A model generated the notes under the pieces. The model saw only the letters and a list, made by a program, of their open reading frames with translations. It searched no databases and was not told the DNA's origin. This document shows, in pieces, positions 1 through 33,117 of a stretch of 34,799 bases of DNA. The DNA comes from a virus: the IMG/VR virus record IMGVR_UViG_3300024273_001035, positions 1-34,799 of that record, one strand, 5' to 3'. Position 1 is the stretch's first letter. Each line of letters starts with the position of its first letter. A program made the position numbers and the translations under genes.

Positions 1-1519
1 AAGTTAATAAGTTAGCAGCAGATGAACCATCAATAGTTACATTGAATGTAACATATTGAGTTTCTGGGTGGAATCCAGCATCAACTAATGCGAATCTAGA
101 TTTAACAGCAACTTTAGGAGCCATAGTTCCTTCAGCGATTGTTTGAACTGATTCAGCCATTAAGTAAGGCATGAATACAACACCTGGTCCGTTTCCGTCA
201 CCTTTTCTACCTACAGTTACTGAATAATCTCCCCAGTTCATTGTTGGGTCAGTGTAGATATTAATACCTGCAACAGATCCTAATGGATAGATAGCTCCAG
301 CAGCTTGCGCGAACGTGTTAGCCATTGGGTTAGCAACGAATCCAGCGATAGACTGTAATACTGTTGCAGTTTGTGGTCCAACAACTGCGAAGTTACCAGC
401 ACCTCTTCTACCTCTGTTAGCGATTAAGTTAGCAGCAGCTAATACTTGAGAAAGGATTCTTCTGTGAATTGAAGGTAAAGTTTCACCACCACCACCTAAA
501 GCAGCAGCCAAAGGTAAATCTAAATCGAAACCGTTTGCAGTGAATGCAGCAGTGATATTAGCAGTACCTAAAGTTCTTAATCTTCCTAAGATGTATTGGT
601 TAATAGATTGAGTTAATTCATTAGTTAAAACAGCTTCAACTTGAGCAACAGCGTCAACTCCGAATTGTTTTAAATCTTGAACTTGTTCTCTTGTTACAGC
701 AGCAGCAACTTGGAAAGTTTCAGCTGAAACTGATTTAGAGAATAAAGAAAGACCCATGATTTTGTCTTTCGTAGATTCACCAGCTTCTCTTGAGAATGGG
801 TTACCTGCATTGTCAGCACCTACGAATCCTTTAATGTGATCCTCTAATGCTTTTACTAATTCAACACCAGTTGCAGTAGCAGGTGCAATTAATGAAGCTA
901 ATGCTAATGTAACGTCAGCGACAACAGTTGCAGCTACGATAGTACCTACTTTGAAAATCATTTTACCGTCAATTCTAGAAGTTCCTATTAATTCATAAGA
1001 ACCGTAATTACCAGCAGATGCTGGAATAGTATCATTAGATAATGCTTCAATCTCAGCGATAACTGCATCAATATCTTCAGCAACGCCTACTTTGATGTAA
1101 GTTGGGGCAACAGTACCGTCAGCACCGTTAACACTACCTAAAGTACCACCTTCGTATACGAAGTCTAAGTAAGATAATAATCCCATTGGTCCAGCCATAG
1201 GAACTACAGGTACTAAGTCTAAACCTACAGTTTGTGCAGCAACTTGCATTGCTAAAGGTAATAATGAAGGAGCTTTATCTCCAGAACCGTTAGATGTAGA
1301 AACACCGTTTGCATATCCAGAAGGTAAAACAGTTGCTCCCATACCAGTTAAGTTCATACCTGGGTTTAAAGACATTGTAGAAGCATCTTCATATAATTTG
1401 TGGTTGTGACAGTATTCTGACATCCAAGCTAATTTGCTAGCGTCATTGATTCCTGTCGCAGATTCGATAATCGGAGACCACGTTGCTCTGATTTCTGATT
1501 CATTGATTAAATTTGCCAT
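1..1519 (-). CDS. 23: Major capsid protein, T4 gp23-like (3' end cut by window edge)
   Basis: The minus frame from the ATG at 1519 stays open to the window edge (506 codons). T4 gp23 is 521 aa, so most of the protein is present. I translated it by eye: it starts MANLINESEIRATWSPIIES and later has an LPLAMQVAAQTVGLDLVPVV segment followed by PMAGPMGLLSYLDFVYEGG, matching the gp23 region around LPLAMRVAAQTIGLDL. It would form the hexameric shell of the head. The gene lies directly after the protease/scaffold gene, as 21-22-23 do in T4. Residues LINE7-S8 look like a prohead-protease site, so the removed propeptide would be only about 7 residues, against 65 in T4. A late promoter motif lies about 110 nt upstream. 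Confidence 0.93.
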   Translation of the reverse strand, partial: MANLINESEIRATWSPIIESATGINDASKLAWMSEYCHNHKLYEDASTMSLNPGMNLTGMGATVLPSGYANGVSTSNGSGDKAPSLLPLAMQVAAQTVGLDLVPVVPMAGPMGLLSYLDFVYEGGTLGSVNGADGTVAPTYIKVGVAEDIDAVIAEIEALSNDTIPASAGNYGSYELIGTSRIDGKMIFKVGTIVAATVVADVTLALASLIAPATATGVELVKALEDHIKGFVGADNAGNPFSREAGESTKDKIMGLSLFSKSVSAETFQVAAAVTREQVQDLKQFGVDAVAQVEAVLTNELTQSINQYILGRLRTLGTANITAAFTANGFDLDLPLAAALGGGGETLPSIHRRILSQVLAAANLIANRGRRGAGNFAVVGPQTATVLQSIAGFVANPMANTFAQAAGAIYPLGSVAGINIYTDPTMNWGDYSVTVGRKGDGNGPGVVFMPYLMAESVQTIAEGTMAPKVAVKSRFALVDAGFHPETQYVTFNVTIDGSSAANLLT

Positions 1520-1625
1520 TTTGTTTAATTTATTTTTTTAATGGTTTTATTGTTTCGTATTTTACGAGTTTTCGATATAATTTCAGTTTTTTGCTTCTTA
1601 ACTAAAGATCGAATATGTTTTAATA

Positions 1626-6263: not shown

Positions 6264-6752
6264 TTATTTTAACCCATTTTTAATGGTATCTTCAGTAAGA
6301 ACTATGAATTTCCAGCTCCTCTCTTCAGCATATTGTTTGGCAGCATTGTACTTGTCCATATTTTTTACATATTGCTCTGCAAGAAATTTATAGGATTCAA
6401 TAGCCTTCTTTGACATTTTGGTTGGTATCTGTGGTTTTTGTATTTGTGCCTTTGGTTTTATTTCAGCCAAAAACTCCTCAGTACTTCCATCCTGTTTTAA
6501 TATTTTAAAATAAAAGTCTGGATGATATGTTCTTTGCTTATTTCCTTGTCTGGACCAATACTTGATTTCAACAGGTTCACTTGACCACACTAAAACCTTG
6601 TCATTAATGTCACACCATATCATGAACTTATACTCCCATGAGCTTCTATATATGATTGGGGGTGGTCCTGCATATTTTTCAGGATTCTTTGGATTAAAAT
6701 AACCTTGATTAAATCCGGAGTTCTTGGTTGGTTTGACGTTTTTAATTGACAT
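6264..6752 (-). CDS. 4: Head completion protein / nuclease, T4 gp4 (gp50)-like
   Basis: 162 aa against 150 in T4. The core YRSSWEYKFMIWCDIND, then VLVWSSEPVEIKYW, YHPDFYF and EFLAEIKPKAQ, has the layout of the gp4 family and of a PD-(D/E)xK nuclease fold. Likely metal and catalytic residues are the Glu of SSWE, the Asp of HPDF and Glu-x-Lys in AEIKPK. In T4 this protein is needed to finish filled heads. The start overlaps the gp55 stop by one base (TAATG), so the two are probably translationally coupled. Confidence 0.85.
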   Translation of the reverse strand: MSIKNVKPTKNSGFNQGYFNPKNPEKYAGPPPIIYRSSWEYKFMIWCDINDKVLVWSSEPVEIKYWSRQGNKQRTYHPDFYFKILKQDGSTEEFLAEIKPKAQIQKPQIPTKMSKKAIESYKFLAEQYVKNMDKYNAAKQYAEERSWKFIVLTEDTIKNGLK

Positions 6753-7126
6753 TATATAGAATAGATTCCACCACCATCTTCTCCACTCGATGATGTGCTA
6801 TCAATTGAGATGGTGCCTTTGTATTTTACAGGGTGGATTTTGTTCCATCCCTTTGCATATCCTCTCTTTGCAATTTCTGTAAAGTATGCAAATGCGTTTG
6901 GATAATCTGGGTTGAAATTTCTCCAATACTTTAAAAGGTCTAACATTGCAAACTGTAGACAATCTTGACGATCATCATTATTTACATAAGACATTTTAGT
7001 AATTGCCCTTTCCGCTAATAATATTAACATCTTTTCTGCAATAGGGGTCAATTTTCCTAAATCCTTTGATTCGGACATTGCTGTATGCAAATCCTTGTTG
7101 TTTAAATAATTTTTCTTTTTAGCCAC
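6752..7126 (-). CDS. 55: Late-transcription sigma factor, T4 gp55-like
   Basis: 124 aa, shorter than T4 gp55 (185 aa). The segment NNDDRQDCLQFAMLDLLKYW followed by FNPDYPNAFAYFTEIAKRGY is the sigma region-2-like core seen in gp55 proteins. The start is a GTG at 7126, preceded by ATATACCAATT. It would direct host RNA polymerase to late promoters, here probably the GATATATAA-type motifs. It is driven by a clear GAAACA-N16-TATAAT promoter and not by a late motif, which makes sense for a gene needed before late transcription. The C-terminal GGGIYSI is unlike a classical clamp-binding tail. Confidence 0.82.
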   Translation of the reverse strand: MAKKKNYLNNKDLHTAMSESKDLGKLTPIAEKMLILLAERAITKMSYVNNDDRQDCLQFAMLDLLKYWRNFNPDYPNAFAYFTEIAKRGYAKGWNKIHPVKYKGTISIDSTSSSGEDGGGIYSI

Positions 7127-15870: not shown

Positions 15871-17067
15871 TTAAAATAATGATGTTGAATAAATTAGGTT
15901 TCTGTTTAGTGAATGTAATCCTACCGCTACCAATACTCTATTCAATGGATCAATTACACTTTTTTCAAATTGTAGTTCATAATCTATAGTTGGAGCAAAT
16001 TCATAAGGATGAGCGCCTGGTTGATACGCAAATATTTCACAAACGTTATGTTTACAGTGATATAACTTTAGCTTCTCGCCATTCCCAATCACCTTGTACT
16101 TGTTTTTGTACTTTGGGTTTGTATTCATTAGGAAGTTATAAAATCCTGCTGCCTTGACATTAGGAGGACACTTAAGACCATACTGAAATTCAATGGTATC
16201 ATCTACGATATATTTCTCAATATTGTTAGTTCTCTTGTTAAAACAGATTTCATCAACACTTGCCAATTGAAACTCTTTCTTACACTGTTTCAAATAGTCA
16301 ACCAATCTTTTTAATAGAGAGGCTGTTGGTTTTTCTGATAGGATTAATTTAAGTGCTTCCGTTAAGTGCTTACGTGCTATTGCAGGGGTTGAACTTTGAA
16401 TTGTATCATATCCAATCGTCTTAATCTTTTTAAGAGATGGGTATCTTTCATCAATTCCAATTTTATCTTCCCATGCGATATTCTGTAAATACTTTTTCTT
16501 TGCTAACCAAATTCCTGAGTATGCAATCGTTTCAAGTTCAAACATAAGGAAGTTTTCCGTATTGGTTGCTTCAGCATATTTGTCCATGCATTTAAAAATA
16601 TACTCTTTAAGTCTAAAGTTGTATATCTTCATAATGAAATCATCGATGGTTAGTTTATCTCCTAACCATTCAATGGACTCATACATTTCCTCAAACTGTA
16701 CATAACATGAATCCGTATCAATATAAACAACAGATGGTCTTACCAATTTGCCTTTTACATTAATGTTAAAATGTGCATGTACCGCTTTATCCTTTGGCCA
16801 GAATTCTTGGAAATACTTATTAAGAATCTTTTCAGAGTATAGAATCGCAGATTGACCCTGTAAAGTGATCGATTCTGCGATGTCTATATTGAAAAAGTGA
16901 AACCACTTATTACCAAATGCACCATAGATGGAGTTAAGCATTACCTTAACTGCCTGTTCATATGCTGTGTATTTGGCAGACAATGTTGAATAATGCTCTA
17001 CCAAGATTTTAATCTCGTCCTGTGTCAGATCACTCTCTGGCTTTAGTATTAATTCATCGATTGTCAT
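15871..17067 (-). CDS. 43B: DNA polymerase C-terminal half (split T4 gp43, family B)
   Basis: 398 aa carrying the second half of a family B polymerase. Motif B is KVMLNSIYGAFGNK (Lys41, Asn45, Tyr48, Gly49). Motif C is VVYIDTDSCYVQF, with the two metal-binding Asp residues. Thumb-like sequence follows. Exonuclease motifs and motif A are absent; they are in the ORF at 21704-23101. The first ~38 residues (MTIDELILKPESDLTQDEIK) match the fingers region before motif B, so the break lies in the fingers loop and little seems lost. Together the halves total 863 aa (T4 gp43: 898). The C-terminus ends STSLF, a possible clamp-binding tail. The clamp gene lies 3 nt upstream. Confidence 0.93.
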   Translation of the reverse strand: MTIDELILKPESDLTQDEIKILVEHYSTLSAKYTAYEQAVKVMLNSIYGAFGNKWFHFFNIDIAESITLQGQSAILYSEKILNKYFQEFWPKDKAVHAHFNINVKGKLVRPSVVYIDTDSCYVQFEEMYESIEWLGDKLTIDDFIMKIYNFRLKEYIFKCMDKYAEATNTENFLMFELETIAYSGIWLAKKKYLQNIAWEDKIGIDERYPSLKKIKTIGYDTIQSSTPAIARKHLTEALKLILSEKPTASLLKRLVDYLKQCKKEFQLASVDEICFNKRTNNIEKYIVDDTIEFQYGLKCPPNVKAAGFYNFLMNTNPKYKNKYKVIGNGEKLKLYHCKHNVCEIFAYQPGAHPYEFAPTIDYELQFEKSVIDPLNRVLVAVGLHSLNRNLIYSTSLF

Positions 17068-21703: not shown

Positions 21704-23101
21704 TTACTTTAGCAATTTTCTCAAGTTGTCTGCCTTTGTGTAATATTCATATGATGTTGTTTTGTAATCTTTACGTTGTTGGTATAGGTCACTAAGAATT
21801 TTTCTAAGAATTGAATCATCTGTATTATAAACAACTCCATTATCACATACAATTACATTAGTATCTTTACGTCTTTCTGCAATTTCACTCTTACCTATTT
21901 TTTCAATGTATGCATCTGGAGAAATATTAAATTGTCTCATTATTGAAGGATATAGAGACGCGAAATCGAATGCACTTACACCTTCATAAAATCCAAGGAT
22001 TGGTTCCTTTACAAATGCTCCAGCGTATTGGCCATCTTTTTGACCATCTTTCTTTTCCTCACTTCCAATTCTCATTCCTTGCTCTGCCAATTTTCTTGCC
22101 ATAATCGCTTCAGTAACTGCCACTGGAGAACTTGCTTTATATAGAGGCATGTTTGTGATGTTTGCAAGTGTCAGTAGGACCTCCATTGATTTTAATTTTT
22201 GGTCAATATAATAAACCAATACCGAATCGACTACGTTATAGTAAATGTACTTGACAAAGTTATCTCGATACAAATCCTGTAATGAACCTGTAAATTTAAT
22301 CTTGTTAACTTTTAAGACCTGGCTTGAAACATAATCAAGTGAATTGGATTCCTTTACTTTAACTGATCTATCATATTTATCATATAATTGCATGTAATCT
22401 AGAATTCCAATGTGTAATGGGCGACTATCGTTTTTATCAACAGAACCTGTCATACTTACTTCACTAATATCAATTTGAAGTCTTTTACAACGATTCACAA
22501 TATATTGCCAGTCATAGTTAATAAAATTCCATCCTGTCATCATTGGGAATTTAGGTAAGAATTTCATTAAGAATGTGTACACCATATCATATTCGGATTT
22601 GAACTTATGGTACTTAAATTCCCAGTCCATATCAAAATCTTTGAAGTATTCATTAGTGTCATCTTGTATCTTTTTGATACTTTCAGAATCCATGTCCTCA
22701 AGACCTAATACAATTGCTTTACGATCTGGTGTAATAATTGAGAATGAAAGGATTCTACTTTTAGCCTCCTCTGCTTTAGGGAATCCATCTACAATTTCAG
22801 TTTCAATATCGACAAAGTATGTCTTTGGCATATTATATGCTGTCAATTCTGCTTTATCTTTCTCTGAAAGAGAATCTAAAAAATAAAGAATTGAAAACTT
22901 ATTGTATTGTCTACCATATCCTAATTTAACAGAACGGCCATCCCAATTTTTATAAGTTGGACTGGCCGCTTTATCTTTATCATCACAAACATACCAATTT
23001 TGGAATTTATCCACAGGATATTGTTTGAATGCTACTTCTCCCTTGTCATTATAATACGATATGATAATATCTTTTTCTCTTTGCTCGATATCTAATATCA
23101 T
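21704..23101 (-). CDS. 43A: DNA polymerase N-terminal half (split T4 gp43, family B)
   Basis: 465 aa. Exonuclease motifs: Exo I in FVDIETE (Asp98, Glu100), Exo II in TGWNFINYDW (Asn192, Asp197), Exo III in YYNVVDSVLVYYID (Tyr288, Asp292). Polymerase motif A is FDFASLYPS, with Asp379. It ends soon after the LYQQRKDYK fingers helix, at KADNLRKLLK. Motifs B and C are on the separate ORF at 15871-17067, about 4.6 kb away. No intein splice residues are seen at the end, so the halves probably assemble without covalent joining. Confidence 0.94.
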   Translation of the reverse strand: MILDIEQREKDIIISYYNDKGEVAFKQYPVDKFQNWYVCDDKDKAASPTYKNWDGRSVKLGYGRQYNKFSILYFLDSLSEKDKAELTAYNMPKTYFVDIETEIVDGFPKAEEAKSRILSFSIITPDRKAIVLGLEDMDSESIKKIQDDTNEYFKDFDMDWEFKYHKFKSEYDMVYTFLMKFLPKFPMMTGWNFINYDWQYIVNRCKRLQIDISEVSMTGSVDKNDSRPLHIGILDYMQLYDKYDRSVKVKESNSLDYVSSQVLKVNKIKFTGSLQDLYRDNFVKYIYYNVVDSVLVYYIDQKLKSMEVLLTLANITNMPLYKASSPVAVTEAIMARKLAEQGMRIGSEEKKDGQKDGQYAGAFVKEPILGFYEGVSAFDFASLYPSIMRQFNISPDAYIEKIGKSEIAERRKDTNVIVCDNGVVYNTDDSILRKILSDLYQQRKDYKTTSYEYYTKADNLRKLLK

Positions 23102-25004: not shown

Positions 25005-25922
25005 TGCCAATTCTTTATAAACATTGATTAGTTCAACGATTCTAGATTGAAGCGCTCTTTGTGAACTTTCATCCTTTACCTTAACATCTAACCCATAAAC
25101 TGAATTTGATAAGATTTTTAATTCGGTTAAAAGGTGTCCAACTGTTGTTTTGTCTAATACATTTTGAGATTGTTTTGCAAAATGAAAGTTAATCAATTCA
25201 GTTAAATTAGCTTTAATCGAATTCATTTTAACAACACACTCATCATAAGTTGCAATGATTTCTCTGTTTGCAGTCTTTTCAAACTCTTCCATTCCACCTA
25301 CAAACTTTGTATCAATTTTAACAAATCGCAAACCTGAATGTGTTGGAATATCAATACGAGAATCATCAATACCTCTAGCTCTGCAAATGTCTTTAAATGT
25401 TTGAATGTTATTTGGTGTAAATTTACATTTAGTTTCAAATACATTTTTAGCATCAATAGAATATAGTGGAACAATATTTGAGTATTCACTTACTGGATAT
25501 GAAATAAATTCAATGTCCATACTATGCAATGTTTTTACAGTTTCATAAATTGCAGTATGTGTTCTGAAGAATCTGGTAGCAAATACCTCATCTTCTAAAG
25601 TATCATATGTGAATTCTTCAGTATCATCGTCATATTCTCTGGTCTCACTGATCTTAGCAACTGTTTCTTGATATTCTTTAACTGAGATTGTTGTAATATT
25701 TTCAGTGTTATCATAACCAATCAACTTTCTTTCAGAAGTTTCATAGGTAATAGTTTCAGGTCTTTCGTTGATAGTCATTAATTCTCCAACCTTCTGACCT
25801 CTTAATGGATCTGTGATTGGATTTCCATTAACACATACATTTGTGGCTGAATAACTTCCAGGTGTTTTGAATGTGTATAAATTTGTTTTTGAATCGTAAC
25901 CTACTTTAATTGAATTTTCCAT
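25002..25922 (-). CDS. Unknown 306-aa protein
   Basis: Not recognised. The N-terminal ~60 residues look beta-rich (SKTNLYTFKTPGSYSATNVC). An acidic stretch (TREYDDDTEEFTYDTLEDEV) follows, then a possible alpha/beta core (SMDIEFISYPVSEYSNIVPL; LRFVKIDTKFVGG) and a C-terminal helical part. There is no signal peptide or transmembrane segment. It starts about 50 nt after the terminator that ends the structured noncoding region. Promoter boxes before it are unclear: TATAAC is present, but no GAAACA box at 16 nt. Confidence 0.75.
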   Translation of the reverse strand: MENSIKVGYDSKTNLYTFKTPGSYSATNVCVNGNPITDPLRGQKVGELMTINERPETITYETSERKLIGYDNTENITTISVKEYQETVAKISETREYDDDTEEFTYDTLEDEVFATRFFRTHTAIYETVKTLHSMDIEFISYPVSEYSNIVPLYSIDAKNVFETKCKFTPNNIQTFKDICRARGIDDSRIDIPTHSGLRFVKIDTKFVGGMEEFEKTANREIIATYDECVVKMNSIKANLTELINFHFAKQSQNVLDKTTVGHLLTELKILSNSVYGLDVKVKDESSQRALQSRIVELINVYKELA

Positions 25923-25972: not shown

Positions 25973-26018
25973 ATAAAAAAATCCTGGTAAAAAAGTTATT
26001 AACAATTTCACCAGGATT
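25973..26018 (-). terminator. Rho-independent terminator ending the structured noncoding RNA
   Basis: Stem AATCCTGGT/ACCAGGATT (25980-25988 with 26010-26018), extended by weaker G-T and A-T pairs to about 13 bp, then a run of T and ATG on the minus strand. Confidence 0.88.
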
Positions 26019-26230
26019 AAATTTTAACGGGATAGTTGTTCGTGATTTTCTTCTCGGCAGAATAACCCTTTTTTACGTCTTCGGCTTTGACTTTCGCGAG
26101 CGTCTACTAAAACTTCGACCCATCCTACTTATCACCTATTGAGGTGGTTTGACGTTTGTTTATTTTTTATCCTGGTTAAACTTCCATTTGCCTATCCGCC
26201 GAAGCTTTTAATGGATAATTGGCTATCATA

Positions 26231-26312
26231 GCTGTGTGTACTTTTTGCTGTACCTATCCTCCAGGTTCCGTTCCATTGCTAGTTTATAATTGCTTGTGTA
26301 TTGTTTGCTGTA
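26231..26312 (-). repeat. Imperfect repeat in two hairpins of the noncoding RNA
   Basis: The minus strand has TACAGCAAACAATACACAAG-C (26312-26292) in hairpin A and TACAGCAAAAAGTACACACA-GC (26252-26231) in hairpin B, about 60 nt apart. Both lie inside the stem-loops. Confidence 0.75.
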
Positions 26313-26325
26313 AGGAACCTAATTT

Positions 26326-26340
26326 CTTTTATTATATATC
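26326..26340 (-). promoter_or_regulatory. Late promoter motif before the noncoding RNA
   Basis: The minus strand reads GATATATAATAAAAG. It touches the stop codon of the DUF2828-type gene, so no coding gene follows it for over 400 nt. The ten-base core is the same as before the CTS gene at 18901. Confidence 0.6.
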
Positions 26341-27770
26341 TAAACAATTGGAGCATATCTCTCGCTCGAGATTGTTTTATCCATTATTTGTTGTGGTGAC
26401 TCAATATCACCTCCAAGTAAACTTGTCATAATAGCTGGTGAGAATCCTGAAACTAATGCAGTTCCTAATTTATCAAATGCCACTGGTACTCCTCCATTTC
26501 TGGACTGAATGTTCCAATAAACAATTTGAGGAACTTTGTAACCTGCATCTTCGTACATCTTCTCAATCATTTGTTGAGCAGTAGGATTCCAAGCTGATCT
26601 ATCATTTCTCCATCCACCTCCCCCAGTTGCCGAATTAAATTCCATATCTGATAGGATTAGGATTTTATTTGGCATCTCGTCTTGAGACAATTTATGTTTA
26701 GTTGCTTGATCTAAAATTAACTTAAAGGTAGCCTCTAAGTTTGTTGACATTCCCCAATCAGCTCTGGCCATTTGATGATATCTGTCTTCTAAAGAACCAT
26801 TAACTACTTGTAGTTGTGGGTTATTTGAGAATGTAATAAAAGCATCTTTAAAAGGACCTTCATTTCTTTCAGAAATATAAAGACCTAATGAGATTGCAAC
26901 ATCCATACAGGTTACGGTTTTACTTCCTCCGGCAGGAGTTGACATCGAACCTGAAACATCGACTACTGGTAGGATCATGTCGTTTGCGCCTTCTAAATAA
27001 TTAGGAAGGGCTTTCCATTGCTCATTAGCAACCTTAGCATTTCCATGAGTCAATGATTTTGTAACATCATAAGGATAAACAGCACCTGCATTAATCTTAG
27101 CCTCTCCTTTTACTAGTGATTCGATGTATGCTGAATAACTAGCATATGCATTTTTACCAAACGCTTTCTGGTATCTTGCGCTTGCAACTGATGGTAATTT
27201 ACCGAACTCGATAGAATCCCATTCTCTAGCACACATTTTAGTTTCAACTACATTAGTCAAATTAACTAAAGTTTTACGGTATTGTTTTGGTGACAATTTT
27301 AAGAATGCACGTAACTTTTCAGCTGCTTGACCCTTTCTTGGCATCCATTTTGCACATAGTTGTGATTCCTCTCTAAGAGCATTTGCAATAAGTGTTAATG
27401 CATCTTGCTCAAGATAAGTCCCTACAAGTACTAGTAAGTCATCCCATCTACCATATTCTGAGATTAAATGTAGGTTTGGCTTAAGAACTAAATCATGATT
27501 TTCAGCAAGATAGGCTAAGATGTCTTTGAAAACTTGACGTTCTCCAGCCCCACCTCTAATATCTCTTGCCCAGAATAAAAGTTTCATAGCACGTTTAGGA
27601 TCCTCATTAAATGCTTTTGAAAAGGTTGCAATCAAACGCTGTTTGTCTTGGCCTCTCATTGCTCCAATGTTAAAGAATAAGTCAACGCATGCATTCAACG
27701 AAGTTGAATTAGTTGCCATTCCATTTTCTGTAACAGTATCTTCTTGTCTTAATGCGTCTATGAAGTTCAT
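26340..27770 (-). CDS. Ro60/TROVE-like RNA-binding protein with von Willebrand A domain (DUF2828 type)
   Basis: 476 aa. The N-terminal ~260 residues are helical repeats with FWARDIRGGAGERQVFKDIL (67-86) and SEYGRWDDLLVLVGTYL, typical of TROVE/DUF2828 proteins. The C-terminal vWA domain has a full MIDAS: PVVDVSGSMST (Asp271, Ser273, Ser275), then a Thr in MSTNLEATF and an Asp in ILILSDMEFN. Ro60 relatives bind misfolded RNAs and Y RNAs through the helical ring. A GAAACA-N16-TATAAT promoter precedes this gene, and a structured noncoding region follows it. The DUF2828 assignment comes from memory of motif patterns. Confidence 0.8.
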   Translation of the reverse strand: MNFIDALRQEDTVTENGMATNSTSLNACVDLFFNIGAMRGQDKQRLIATFSKAFNEDPKRAMKLLFWARDIRGGAGERQVFKDILAYLAENHDLVLKPNLHLISEYGRWDDLLVLVGTYLEQDALTLIANALREESQLCAKWMPRKGQAAEKLRAFLKLSPKQYRKTLVNLTNVVETKMCAREWDSIEFGKLPSVASARYQKAFGKNAYASYSAYIESLVKGEAKINAGAVYPYDVTKSLTHGNAKVANEQWKALPNYLEGANDMILPVVDVSGSMSTPAGGSKTVTCMDVAISLGLYISERNEGPFKDAFITFSNNPQLQVVNGSLEDRYHQMARADWGMSTNLEATFKLILDQATKHKLSQDEMPNKILILSDMEFNSATGGGGWRNDRSAWNPTAQQMIEKMYEDAGYKVPQIVYWNIQSRNGGVPVAFDKLGTALVSGFSPAIMTSLLGGDIESPQQIMDKTISSERYAPIV

Positions 27771-31221: not shown

Positions 31222-33117
31222 TTATAAGATTATATATTTAGATTTATTTATGAATTGTTCAAATGTCATAATTTCTTCCTGAATTTCAACAGATTCTGGA
31301 ACAACTCCAACTGCATCTTCTAATTTTGACTTTAATTCTTTGTACATTCCATGAATCGCTTTAGGTGTCATTGACTGAAAATCCTTTTCATTTCCATCTA
31401 TCATTGCGTTTCTAACCTTTGTTGCTGAGATATTATCATCAGTTCTTGGAATTTCAAAAAGTCCAAAATCTGCTCTAGCGTTTAATTGGTCTCTGTAGGA
31501 ATCGTTATTAACCATATAGCCATAACCTTTCATTCTATCAGTTCCAGTTCCCCATAATACTGGTTCGTATTTAGGTCTCATTTCATTATATAATGTATCA
31601 ATCGCAGCGTTTGGAACAATATAGATTTCCTTTAAGAAAGGATATTGTTTTTTAACCTGATTGAACATATCAACCTGTGTTTTTTCGTCATAGGGTTTAC
31701 TAAACTCTTCTCCCTTTTTAACCTTTGACTTAACTAAGAATACAACCACTGGAAATCCATTCTCCTTGTGAATTGTTTCTAATACCTTAGCATGTCCAAG
31801 CGTGAATGGTTGAAATCTTCCAACAAACATATTTACTGGAGTTTTACCCTGTTCCATGTGTTTTACTGTAAGGGCTTCATTTAAATTTACTGAAGATTTA
31901 ATCTTATTATGCAACATAAAATTTGTGTAATCATATACTGCATTTTCATCTGTATTTTCTACAAATATCTTTTCGTTAATCACATCGATGATTTCATTCA
32001 TTCTTGTCATTGTGTCCTTGTCAATTAAATCTGACTCTTTAGTTCTTTTCTTTCTAAATGAACTTAAAATCATTTTAAATAATTCAGCAAGAATATCATT
32101 ATTAACAAACTTTAATGTTTTTTCGTTTTTGATGTATTTTGTATTTAATCTAAAAGATTGTGCCTCTGAAAATTCAGCACTTTCAAAATTAACACCAATG
32201 TATTTTGAAGAGTTTTTATCAACATATCCATTAAATAGGACTGACATTATTTCCAAGTATCTGTTGTTTGCGTTTTCCTCATCAAGATTAATGTCGTTTA
32301 AATCCTGTTGTGTAACGTATTCTAAGAAATCAGTTACTGCAATTTGATATGTGTGACTTGAAGCTCTTAAATCTCTTTTATCTGCACCTGCTCTTGAAAA
32401 ATCCTCAAGTTTAAAAGATTTCATTGTTTTTCCTTCAATGAAGTTTACTATTAAACCATCAATTTCACTTTCAAGATCTGCATTTAATGTAGTTGAATAA
32501 ATGTTTGGATTAAACATCTTAAATATTTTAGAAGTAAAACTTGTTTTGTCTTCTGTTTCAATTAAGTAATCAAATGAATCTGAAAATTCTCTGTCACTCA
32601 TTGTCAATAATGATAAAAGTTCTTCTCCCTGTTGTTGTGAAAGATAACCATCAAAAACAACGCTCGGAGATTGAACATCCATTATCTTTGCCCATTTATT
32701 TAATATCATTGGGTCATTGATAGTTTTTCTAACCTTTCCACCTTCACTAAGTTGTTGAATATGTGTAAGTATTAAACTATTTGTTGGTGTTGTGGCATAA
32801 TCTATATTTGATGCTTTAGTTTCTGGCAAGTACTCAAACCCAAATTTCCAATCTAACGGAAACTGAGATTTAACATCACTTGGTAAACTTTGAAAATGGT
32901 TAATTGCCATTTCATAAAGAGATATAATAGTTCTATCAACCAAATTTAATTTGTCTGATGTTGAAGATTTATAAAACTCAAAACCATCTGTATTTCTCCT
33001 AAAAAGAAAAGAAGGTGCAGCAATCTTTTCAGTCACTAACACTCTGTTTTTTAACATTTCAATAAAGTTTTCTCTATTGGTTTCGTTAAAATGCTCTCTT
33101 AATTTTTGTAATGCCAT
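31222..33117 (-). CDS. RNA-ligase-like domain fused to an NMNAT-like nucleotidyltransferase, with C-terminal capsid-targeting segment
   Basis: 631 aa. Residues ~25-240 read as a covalent nucleotidyltransferase (ligase) fold: candidate Lys31 in VTEKIAAPSFLF, then NTDGFEFYK, motif III-like KFGFEYL (91-97) followed by NSLILTHI, motif IV-like EIDGLIVNF (218-226) and motif V-like MKSFKL. Lys31 is followed by IAA and not the usual xDG, so activity is uncertain. Residues 430-600 form a cytidylyltransferase/NMNAT-type domain: GRFQPFTLGH (433-442), WGTGTDR and ISATKVR (563-569). Between them lies LNE414-A, a probable prohead-protease site. The C-terminus has MTFEQFINK. It likely travels in the head and yields two enzymes after cleavage. 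Substrates are unknown. Confidence 0.72.
   Translation of the reverse strand: MALQKLREHFNETNRENFIEMLKNRVLVTEKIAAPSFLFRRNTDGFEFYKSSTSDKLNLVDRTIISLYEMAINHFQSLPSDVKSQFPLDWKFGFEYLPETKASNIDYATTPTNSLILTHIQQLSEGGKVRKTINDPMILNKWAKIMDVQSPSVVFDGYLSQQQGEELLSLLTMSDREFSDSFDYLIETEDKTSFTSKIFKMFNPNIYSTTLNADLESEIDGLIVNFIEGKTMKSFKLEDFSRAGADKRDLRASSHTYQIAVTDFLEYVTQQDLNDINLDEENANNRYLEIMSVLFNGYVDKNSSKYIGVNFESAEFSEAQSFRLNTKYIKNEKTLKFVNNDILAELFKMILSSFRKKRTKESDLIDKDTMTRMNEIIDVINEKIFVENTDENAVYDYTNFMLHNKIKSSVNLNEALTVKHMEQGKTPVNMFVGRFQPFTLGHAKVLETIHKENGFPVVVFLVKSKVKKGEEFSKPYDEKTQVDMFNQVKKQYPFLKEIYIVPNAAIDTLYNEMRPKYEPVLWGTGTDRMKGYGYMVNNDSYRDQLNARADFGLFEIPRTDDNISATKVRNAMIDGNEKDFQSMTPKAIHGMYKELKSKLEDAVGVVPESVEIQEEIMTFEQFINKSKYIIL
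31228..31241 (-). promoter_or_regulatory. Late promoter-like motif before the polyprotein
   Basis: The minus strand reads TAAATATATAATCT, 28-41 nt before the start and inside the end of the upstream gene. It keeps ATATATAA but lacks the G. Confidence 0.35.

Follow-up and report, generated by a model that had tools for sequence, protein, structure and literature searches.

The analyzed window, i.e., the whole 34,799-nt stretch of phage DNA, contains a conserved structured RNA of approximately 350 nt (positions 25974 to 26325, minus strand) that is strongly linked, both physically and phylogenetically, to an adjacent DUF2828 gene encoding a protein with a modeled Ro60-like fold. We consider this RNA to be a probable Y-RNA-like partner of that protein. 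From the evidence presented below, we infer its transcription, its binding to and gating of the protein, and a role in RNA repair.

Boundaries, structure, and conservation of the RNA

The window is part of a large T4-like phage, and its portal protein shares 59% identity with the portal protein of an uncultured phage of 462 kb. Two minus-strand genes approximately 4.6 kb apart (21704 to 23101 and 15871 to 17067) together encode the family B DNA polymerase, one the exonuclease and the first part of the polymerase domain and the other the rest; the genes between them include ribonucleotide-reductase-like ones. The gene at 31222 to 33117 (minus strand) encodes a large protein whose C-terminal domain is cytidylyltransferase-like.

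All of the genes around the RNA are on the minus strand. The DUF2828/DUF7788 gene (26340 to 27770, minus strand) stops with a TAG at 26342 to 26340, the next gene starts at 25922, and the RNA lies in the gap between them. Its 5′ end was placed from a promoter-like motif, ATATATAA (26332 to 26339, minus strand), located immediately upstream, and its 3′ end from an intrinsic terminator (25975 to 26018, minus strand) composed of AAUCCUGGU and ACCAGGAUU (stem, 26018 to 26010 with 25988 to 25980) followed by a U run (T run in the DNA). The RNA starts 20 nt past the DUF2828 stop codon, with the first helix beginning approximately 12 nt past ATATATAA. This motif is present eight times on the coding strand of the window versus once on the opposite strand, and six further copies are found shortly 5′ of gene starts (31200, 21664, 18901, 8018, 5625, and 3601), a distribution that supports a putative promoter motif common to several window genes. 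An earlier reading of the sequence alone (the sequence-only reading) had proposed an RNA driven by a late promoter and ending in a strong terminator. The shared promoter-like motif was recovered, while late timing is plausible at most; the terminator was corroborated by a terminator hairpin 3′ of the RNA in all 44 relatives with a locatable 3′ end (14 distinct stems). No conserved reading frame was seen in the RNA region.

The same reading had placed a structured noncoding RNA within 25973 to 26340 and had suggested a search for covarying helices in homologs. Such helices, together with a pseudoknot, were found on the minus strand. Among 22 distinct sequences, 90.4% of the cells for 32 pairs in seven helices were standard pairs in the true register, compared with 34 to 43% in slid structures. 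Double-change cells numbered 52, versus 15.0 in shuffles and 1 to 3 in slid structures, and 15 of the 32 pairs changed on both sides. This covariation is decisive evidence for a real structured RNA. Helices P1, P2, P7, and P11 were the best supported, while P3 and P8 were consistent (one double-changed pair each) and P5 was only partly aligned in the test. A plain minimum-free-energy fold was uninformative.

The first hairpin, P1 (module 1; 26261 to 26320, minus strand), is closed by a covarying stem, AGGUUCC (26320 to 26314) with GGAACCU (26269 to 26263), and contains CAGCAA at 26310 to 26305 and a GG tail. Module 2 (26027 to 26259, minus strand) is closed by helix P2, GGAUAG (26259 to 26254) with CUAUCC (26035 to 26030), and contains CAGCAA at 26250 to 26245 and a C-G-U tail; its loop has grown into a structured domain of approximately 200 nt. 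P2 is 99% paired, with a fifth pair that alternates among C-G, A-U, and G-C, and the second position after the stem is a G in 39 of 41 cases. Hairpin P3, GUAC-AGCAAAAA-GUAC (26238 to 26253, minus strand), is 98% paired with one double change. P4 (26190 to 26223, minus strand; GCC/GGC and UAUCC/GGAUA) was delineated by eye as a variable hairpin domain that differs widely in sequence and length among relatives, with complementary ends retained. Hairpin P5 (UGG/CCA) and pseudoknot P6 occupy 26158 to 26186 (minus strand). P6 joins the P5 loop to a downstream strand (GUUU, 26181 to 26178, with AAAC, 26161 to 26158), and four standard pairs are possible wherever both strands were located (GUUU/AAAC, GUCU/AGAC, GACU/AGUC, GAUC/GAUC, or GGCU/AGCU). 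Helix P7 (26075 to 26155, minus strand; ACGUC, 26155 to 26151, with GACGU, 26079 to 26075), of which three pairs change on both sides, encloses P8 (minus strand; GUC, 26119 to 26117, with GAC, 26104 to 26102; 98.5% paired). All four pairs of hairpin P11, UUCU-GCCG-AGAA (26051 to 26062, minus strand), change on both sides, and this hairpin is 98.9% paired. A candidate pairing of the CUGU tail with an ACAG in the loop was dropped because the tail varies without compensation.

Among 77 environmental loci that encode a relative of the DUF2828 protein, approximately 50 have the large RNA just downstream of this gene. The RNA is retained down to 70% protein identity of this neighbor and was not found beside DUF2828 relatives at ≤63% identity. 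Within the window's clade, it was absent solely where the contig ended and was present in all near relatives whose sequence extended far enough, in agreement with the proposed linkage of the RNA to a Ro-like gene. The downstream gene varies among relatives, and in several of them DUF2828 is separated from the RNA by a 121-aa gene that has no Pfam match (e.g., L009, 3464 to 3829).

Covariance models of the large RNA (R1 and R2) had matches confined to the window's own clade and contig L111; a blastn search of phage records with the RNA as the query returned a single match, to the terminator region. Pattern matches at L127, L129, L130, and L132, loci without the RNA, were rejected as chance. L111 carries a truncated core of the large RNA (1295 to 1611, minus strand) beside a tmRNA and seven tRNA genes, and no DUF2828 was found on this 63-kb contig, which may be incomplete. 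In this copy, both stems have been lost through the absence of module 1 and of the 3′ strand of module 2, which would be anticipated for stems that serve DUF2828.

The neighboring protein

The 476-aa protein contains the Pfam domains DUF7788 and DUF2828 and belongs to PHROG 850 ("RNA-binding protein"). These two domains were detected in all of the 20 proteins searched, which yielded no TROVE Pfam match and one weak vWA_Ro60 match. For an AlphaFold model of the protein derived from 20 relatives (pLDDT, 79), the best PDB matches were 9kop (TROVE domain), 9l5y (Ro60 of Thermus phage phiLo), and 9nf8 (human Ro60/La), with E values of 3e-9 to 6e-6 over full-length alignments; four Ro60/TROVE chains were the sole matches at an E value of ≤0.001. 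The vWA metal-site motif DxSxS is intact (DVSGSM), with D271, S273, and S275 invariant in the 20 proteins. Judging from the model, the DUF2828/DUF7788 protein is Ro60-like by fold (helical ring plus vWA), not TROVE by sequence profile. Thus, of the TROVE/DUF2828-type vWA neighbor described earlier, the DUF2828/DUF7788 and vWA assignments and the Ro60/TROVE fold were retained, and the TROVE family assignment was not. The phiLo Ro60 (9l5y) and the TROVE domain of 9kop are similarly phage encoded and have the same overall fold over the full length; they differ in being TROVE family proteins, with approximately 17% identity in the structural alignment.

The CAGCAA hairpin and its linkage to DUF2828 genes

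DUF2828 relatives with <64% identity mostly have, instead of the large RNA, short hairpins of a single plan beside the gene: a 6- to 9-bp stem whose first strand is followed by 1 to 3 nt, CAGCAA, and a variable loop and whose second strand is followed by N-G-U. The large RNA is two such hairpins in tandem, namely, P1 and P2, the latter with an expanded loop. DUF2828 genes lacking any linked RNA had been named as an outcome that would speak against the association. Relatives at ≤63% identity do lack the large RNA, and most of them carry the simpler hairpin, which corresponds to the ends of the large RNA; this finding strengthens the association.

Two hairpins beside DUF2828 in L054 are GGTTTC-TTTCAGCAA-...-GAAACC-TGT and GGATCG-TTTCAGCAA-...-CGATCC-TGT. 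Stand-alone hairpins are also present, in arrays of two to five in the phages, near DUF2828 in Felixounavirus GEP101, Campylobacter phage NCTC12673, Listeria phage LP-124, Mycobacterium phage Archie, Staphylococcus phage CoN_Ph11, Aeromonas phage LAh_9, and Vibrio phage BUCT194, as well as beside DUF2828 in Clostridia and other bacteria. Overall, the copies (approximately 50 to 110 nt, including arrays of two to six) lie upstream of, downstream of, or far from DUF2828. The bacterial copies are mostly in the 5′ region of the gene; 37 of 80 bacterial DUF2828 contigs have a hairpin within 1 kb, and about half have none under a strict rule. The stand-alone modules most often end in UGU (U, 73/93; G, 90/93; U, 59/93), and (N)CAGCAA alone is fixed across the wider hairpin set.

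Many copies are located between tRNA genes (e.g., L285). Some window-clade phages have separate hairpins elsewhere in addition to the large RNA (G018, at 112 kb; G022, at 209 kb; G149; and G150), and these are in tRNA-gene regions where checked. The hairpins of GAP32, Ci1, and ValKK3 are about 9 to 200 kb from DUF2828 (in GAP32, 306 to 312 kb versus 106 kb). Clusters of tRNA genes are found near DUF2828 in the Felixounavirus, Campylobacter, and Listeria phages and in Vibrio phage BUCT194, RtcB and an RNA ligase in Listeria phage LP-124, and an RNA ligase in GAP32 and LAh_9. The presence of RtcB, RNA ligases, and tRNA clusters nearby suggests RNA repair or quality control. Two further observations concern these phage loci. 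One with DUF2828, tRNAs, and CAGCAA hairpins contains a permuted tmRNA match (L077, 915 to 1311), and Campylobacter phage NCTC12673 has a second, partial DUF2828-like frame (6549 to 7055) far from the full gene.

Among 106 loci, 97 hairpin matches were ≤1 kb from DUF2828 on the same strand, 16 were further off, and 14 were on the opposite strand. This corresponds to 4.91 matches per 10 kb in the vicinity of DUF2828 and to 0.28 in the remaining sequence (17-fold; Fisher P = 3e-12, conditional on the motif and with partial reuse of related, nonindependent loci). Permuted hexamers averaged 3.9 near matches, including those overlapping the motif (ACAGCA, 79; AACAGC, 31), and were otherwise rare near DUF2828. 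The G two bases past the 3′ strand, which was not part of the search pattern, was present in 90 of 93 near matches versus 4 of 13 others (P = 4e-8) and followed 48 of 51 distinct stems among the near matches. In seven complete cultured phages, 23 of 50 matches were ≤3 kb from the single DUF2828 gene and on the same strand.

The 30 hairpins used to build a covariance model (R3) were picked for complementarity and came from outside the window's clade. R3 detected the window RNA (module 1; E = 7e-5). At an E value of <0.01, it detected hairpins in 11 of 12 DUF2828 phages versus none of 6 DUF2828-free phages, including 5 of the 6 DUF2828 phages that had contributed no sequence to it, and it recovered GAP32, Ci1, ValKK3, and phiM7, which have DUF2828 and no adjacent hairpin in the strict scan. 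The match in Acinetobacter phage ME3 was weak (E = 0.03), and environmental phages G015 and G017 had no R3 match, with a 6-bp version detected in G017 (L057) by pattern scan. The DUF2828-free phages T4, phiKZ, SPO1, P-SSM2, G, and K had no R3 match below an E value of 0.038. Furthermore, in one bacterial family (119 genomes), the 5 genomes with a hairpin were all among the 10 with DUF2828, and the hairpins were located 83 to 520 nt upstream of the gene (hypergeometric P = 1.4e-6).

These data bear on the possibility that the hairpins and the large RNA are independent phage RNAs that share tRNA-cluster islands with DUF2828 and do not bind its product. Copies between tRNA genes and sometimes far from DUF2828 (as in GAP32 and L285), as well as the L111 core next to a tmRNA and tRNAs without DUF2828, would fit such independence. 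We nevertheless consider it unlikely, because hairpin presence tracks DUF2828 in phages and in all five bacterial genomes, and because the DUF2828-free L111 copy has lost both stems. Phage K, which was used as a control and has published noncoding RNAs (PMC9241854), has annotated tRNAs and neither DUF2828 nor a hairpin.

Alternatively, the RNA could act in cis, either within the DUF2828 message, as its 3′ end or an attenuator, or as a leader of the downstream gene (e.g., in DUF2828 autoregulation), which could account for the short distance to the stop codon and for the 5′ positions of most bacterial copies. Such a role appears improbable, given that the downstream gene varies, that the 121-aa gene can intervene before the RNA, that a separate promoter motif and terminator flank the RNA, and that copies occur upstream, downstream, far away, and in arrays.

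The size, the pseudoknot, and the strong conservation of loop sequences, along with a ROOL RNA adjoining DUF2828 in Listeria phage LP-124, might instead indicate a ribozyme or a large ornate RNA comparable to ROOL, GOLLD, or OLE, acting alone or as a homo-oligomer. This is very doubtful, since no Rfam match was obtained and the outer modules represent the element that also occurs as small stand-alone hairpins, whose simplicity is at odds with such a role. Finally, the notion that an AT-rich gap folds like any other, to which its mildly unusual folding energy (z = -2.1) would lend itself, is already refuted by the covariation, the conservation in approximately 50 loci, and the hairpin statistics.

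Proposed function and comparison with known RNAs

For a Y-RNA-like partner of the DUF2828 protein, the recognition element would be the hairpin itself, comprising the closing stem, CAGCAA at the 5′ side of the loop, and the conserved G 3′ of the stem. One to several stand-alone copies would be carried by most DUF2828-encoding phages and bacteria, beside the gene or in tRNA clusters. In the window's clade, two copies would have been fused in one transcript, with the second loop expanded into the pseudoknotted domain of approximately 200 nt. By analogy with YrlA on Rsr and Y RNAs on Ro60, the stem and CAGCAA may dock on the DUF2828 ring, thereby occupying or gating it, and the loop domain could serve as a tether, gate, or decoy that tethers or presents other RNAs. 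The likely task would be the handling of damaged or misfolded RNA, chiefly tRNA, during infection. In the literature searched, no RNA partner of phage DUF2828 proteins was described, and the term DUF2828 appeared in no paper on phages; one collection contains 682 records of phage DUF2828 genes. The partnership is directly testable in laboratory phages of Escherichia coli, Mycobacterium smegmatis, or Listeria. If our interpretation is correct, an RNA ligand could be assigned to an entire class of Ro-like proteins of phages and bacteria, and the RNA would illustrate the growth of a minimal Y-RNA-like hairpin into a large, structured molecule.

Two features define YrlA Y RNAs, namely, a closing stem for holding Rsr and a tRNA-like domain (PMC8394870). 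As in YrlA and its TROVE protein Rsr, the RNA gene here is linked to that of a Ro60-like protein (PMC8394870, PMC7790460), a stem joins the 5′ and 3′ ends of the RNA (P1 and P2, which covary), the loop domain is modular, and RNA-repair genes such as rtcB are neighbors (PMC8394870, PMC7790460). In contrast to YrlA, the phage RNA has no tRNA-like domain (ARAGORN detected no tRNA in the window) and no Rfam match: no family was assigned to the large RNA at gathering or relaxed thresholds, and the YrlA/Y RNA models did not match at E values up to 5. The phage and bacterial element is also distinguished by the invariant CAGCAA, multicopy arrays, and a DUF2828/DUF7788 partner gene in place of TROVE. 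The element therefore belongs outside the YrlA-type Y RNAs, and its reading as a known bacterial Y RNA was abandoned.

ROOL and GOLLD resemble the window RNA in being large, structured, and encoded by phages in the vicinity of tRNA islands (PMC12286853). The RNA described here is smaller, is made of CAGCAA modules, and has no sequence or covariance match to them; the ROOL, GOLLD, and OLE Rfam models did not match it. A separate ROOL-like RNA was detected in Listeria phage LP-124 (L152, 5018 to 5569; 87 bits, with a gathering threshold of 99) approximately 1 kb from DUF2828, between this gene and the tRNA cluster.

The Class I RNAs of Dictyostelium start with AAG and have a short stem, an 11-nt motif by its 5′ strand, a variable loop, and a CUGU end (PMC7919456). 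They are reported to be absent outside Dictyostelia and to have the RRM protein Rnp1A as a partner (PMC7919456). Their model, RF01414, was the best of 4,227 Rfam families for module 1 (E = 0.001 to 0.005), at a score below the gathering threshold (27.5 versus 41.5 bits), and it also weakly matched Aeromonas phage modules. Shared features are a closing stem of approximately 6 bp, UUACAGCAA beside its 5′ strand, a variable loop, an AAG-type start, a length of approximately 60 nt, and several clustered copies (PMC7919456). As in Class I RNAs, the structure rather than the sequence of the short closing stem is conserved in the hairpins. The 11-nt Class I motif CCUUACAGCAA corresponds to UUCCUUACAGCAA in the window, and the neighbor here is DUF2828 instead of Rnp1A. 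At the 3′ end, where Class I RNAs have CUGU, UGU is the most frequent ending of the stand-alone modules, and the window modules end in UGG and CGU. The likeness may stem from a common ancestor, from convergence, or from a protein partner shared by both. We tentatively raise the possibility, which we hold to be less probable than not, that DUF2828/DUF7788 and the CAGCAA hairpins constitute an old phage and bacterial ribonucleoprotein system, with the Class I RNAs as its eukaryotic branch (Y-RNA analogs) and the window form as a derivative with a 200-nt effector domain in the second hairpin. If so, a candidate function would emerge for the Class I RNAs, which have been reported from Dictyostelia alone (PMC7919456).
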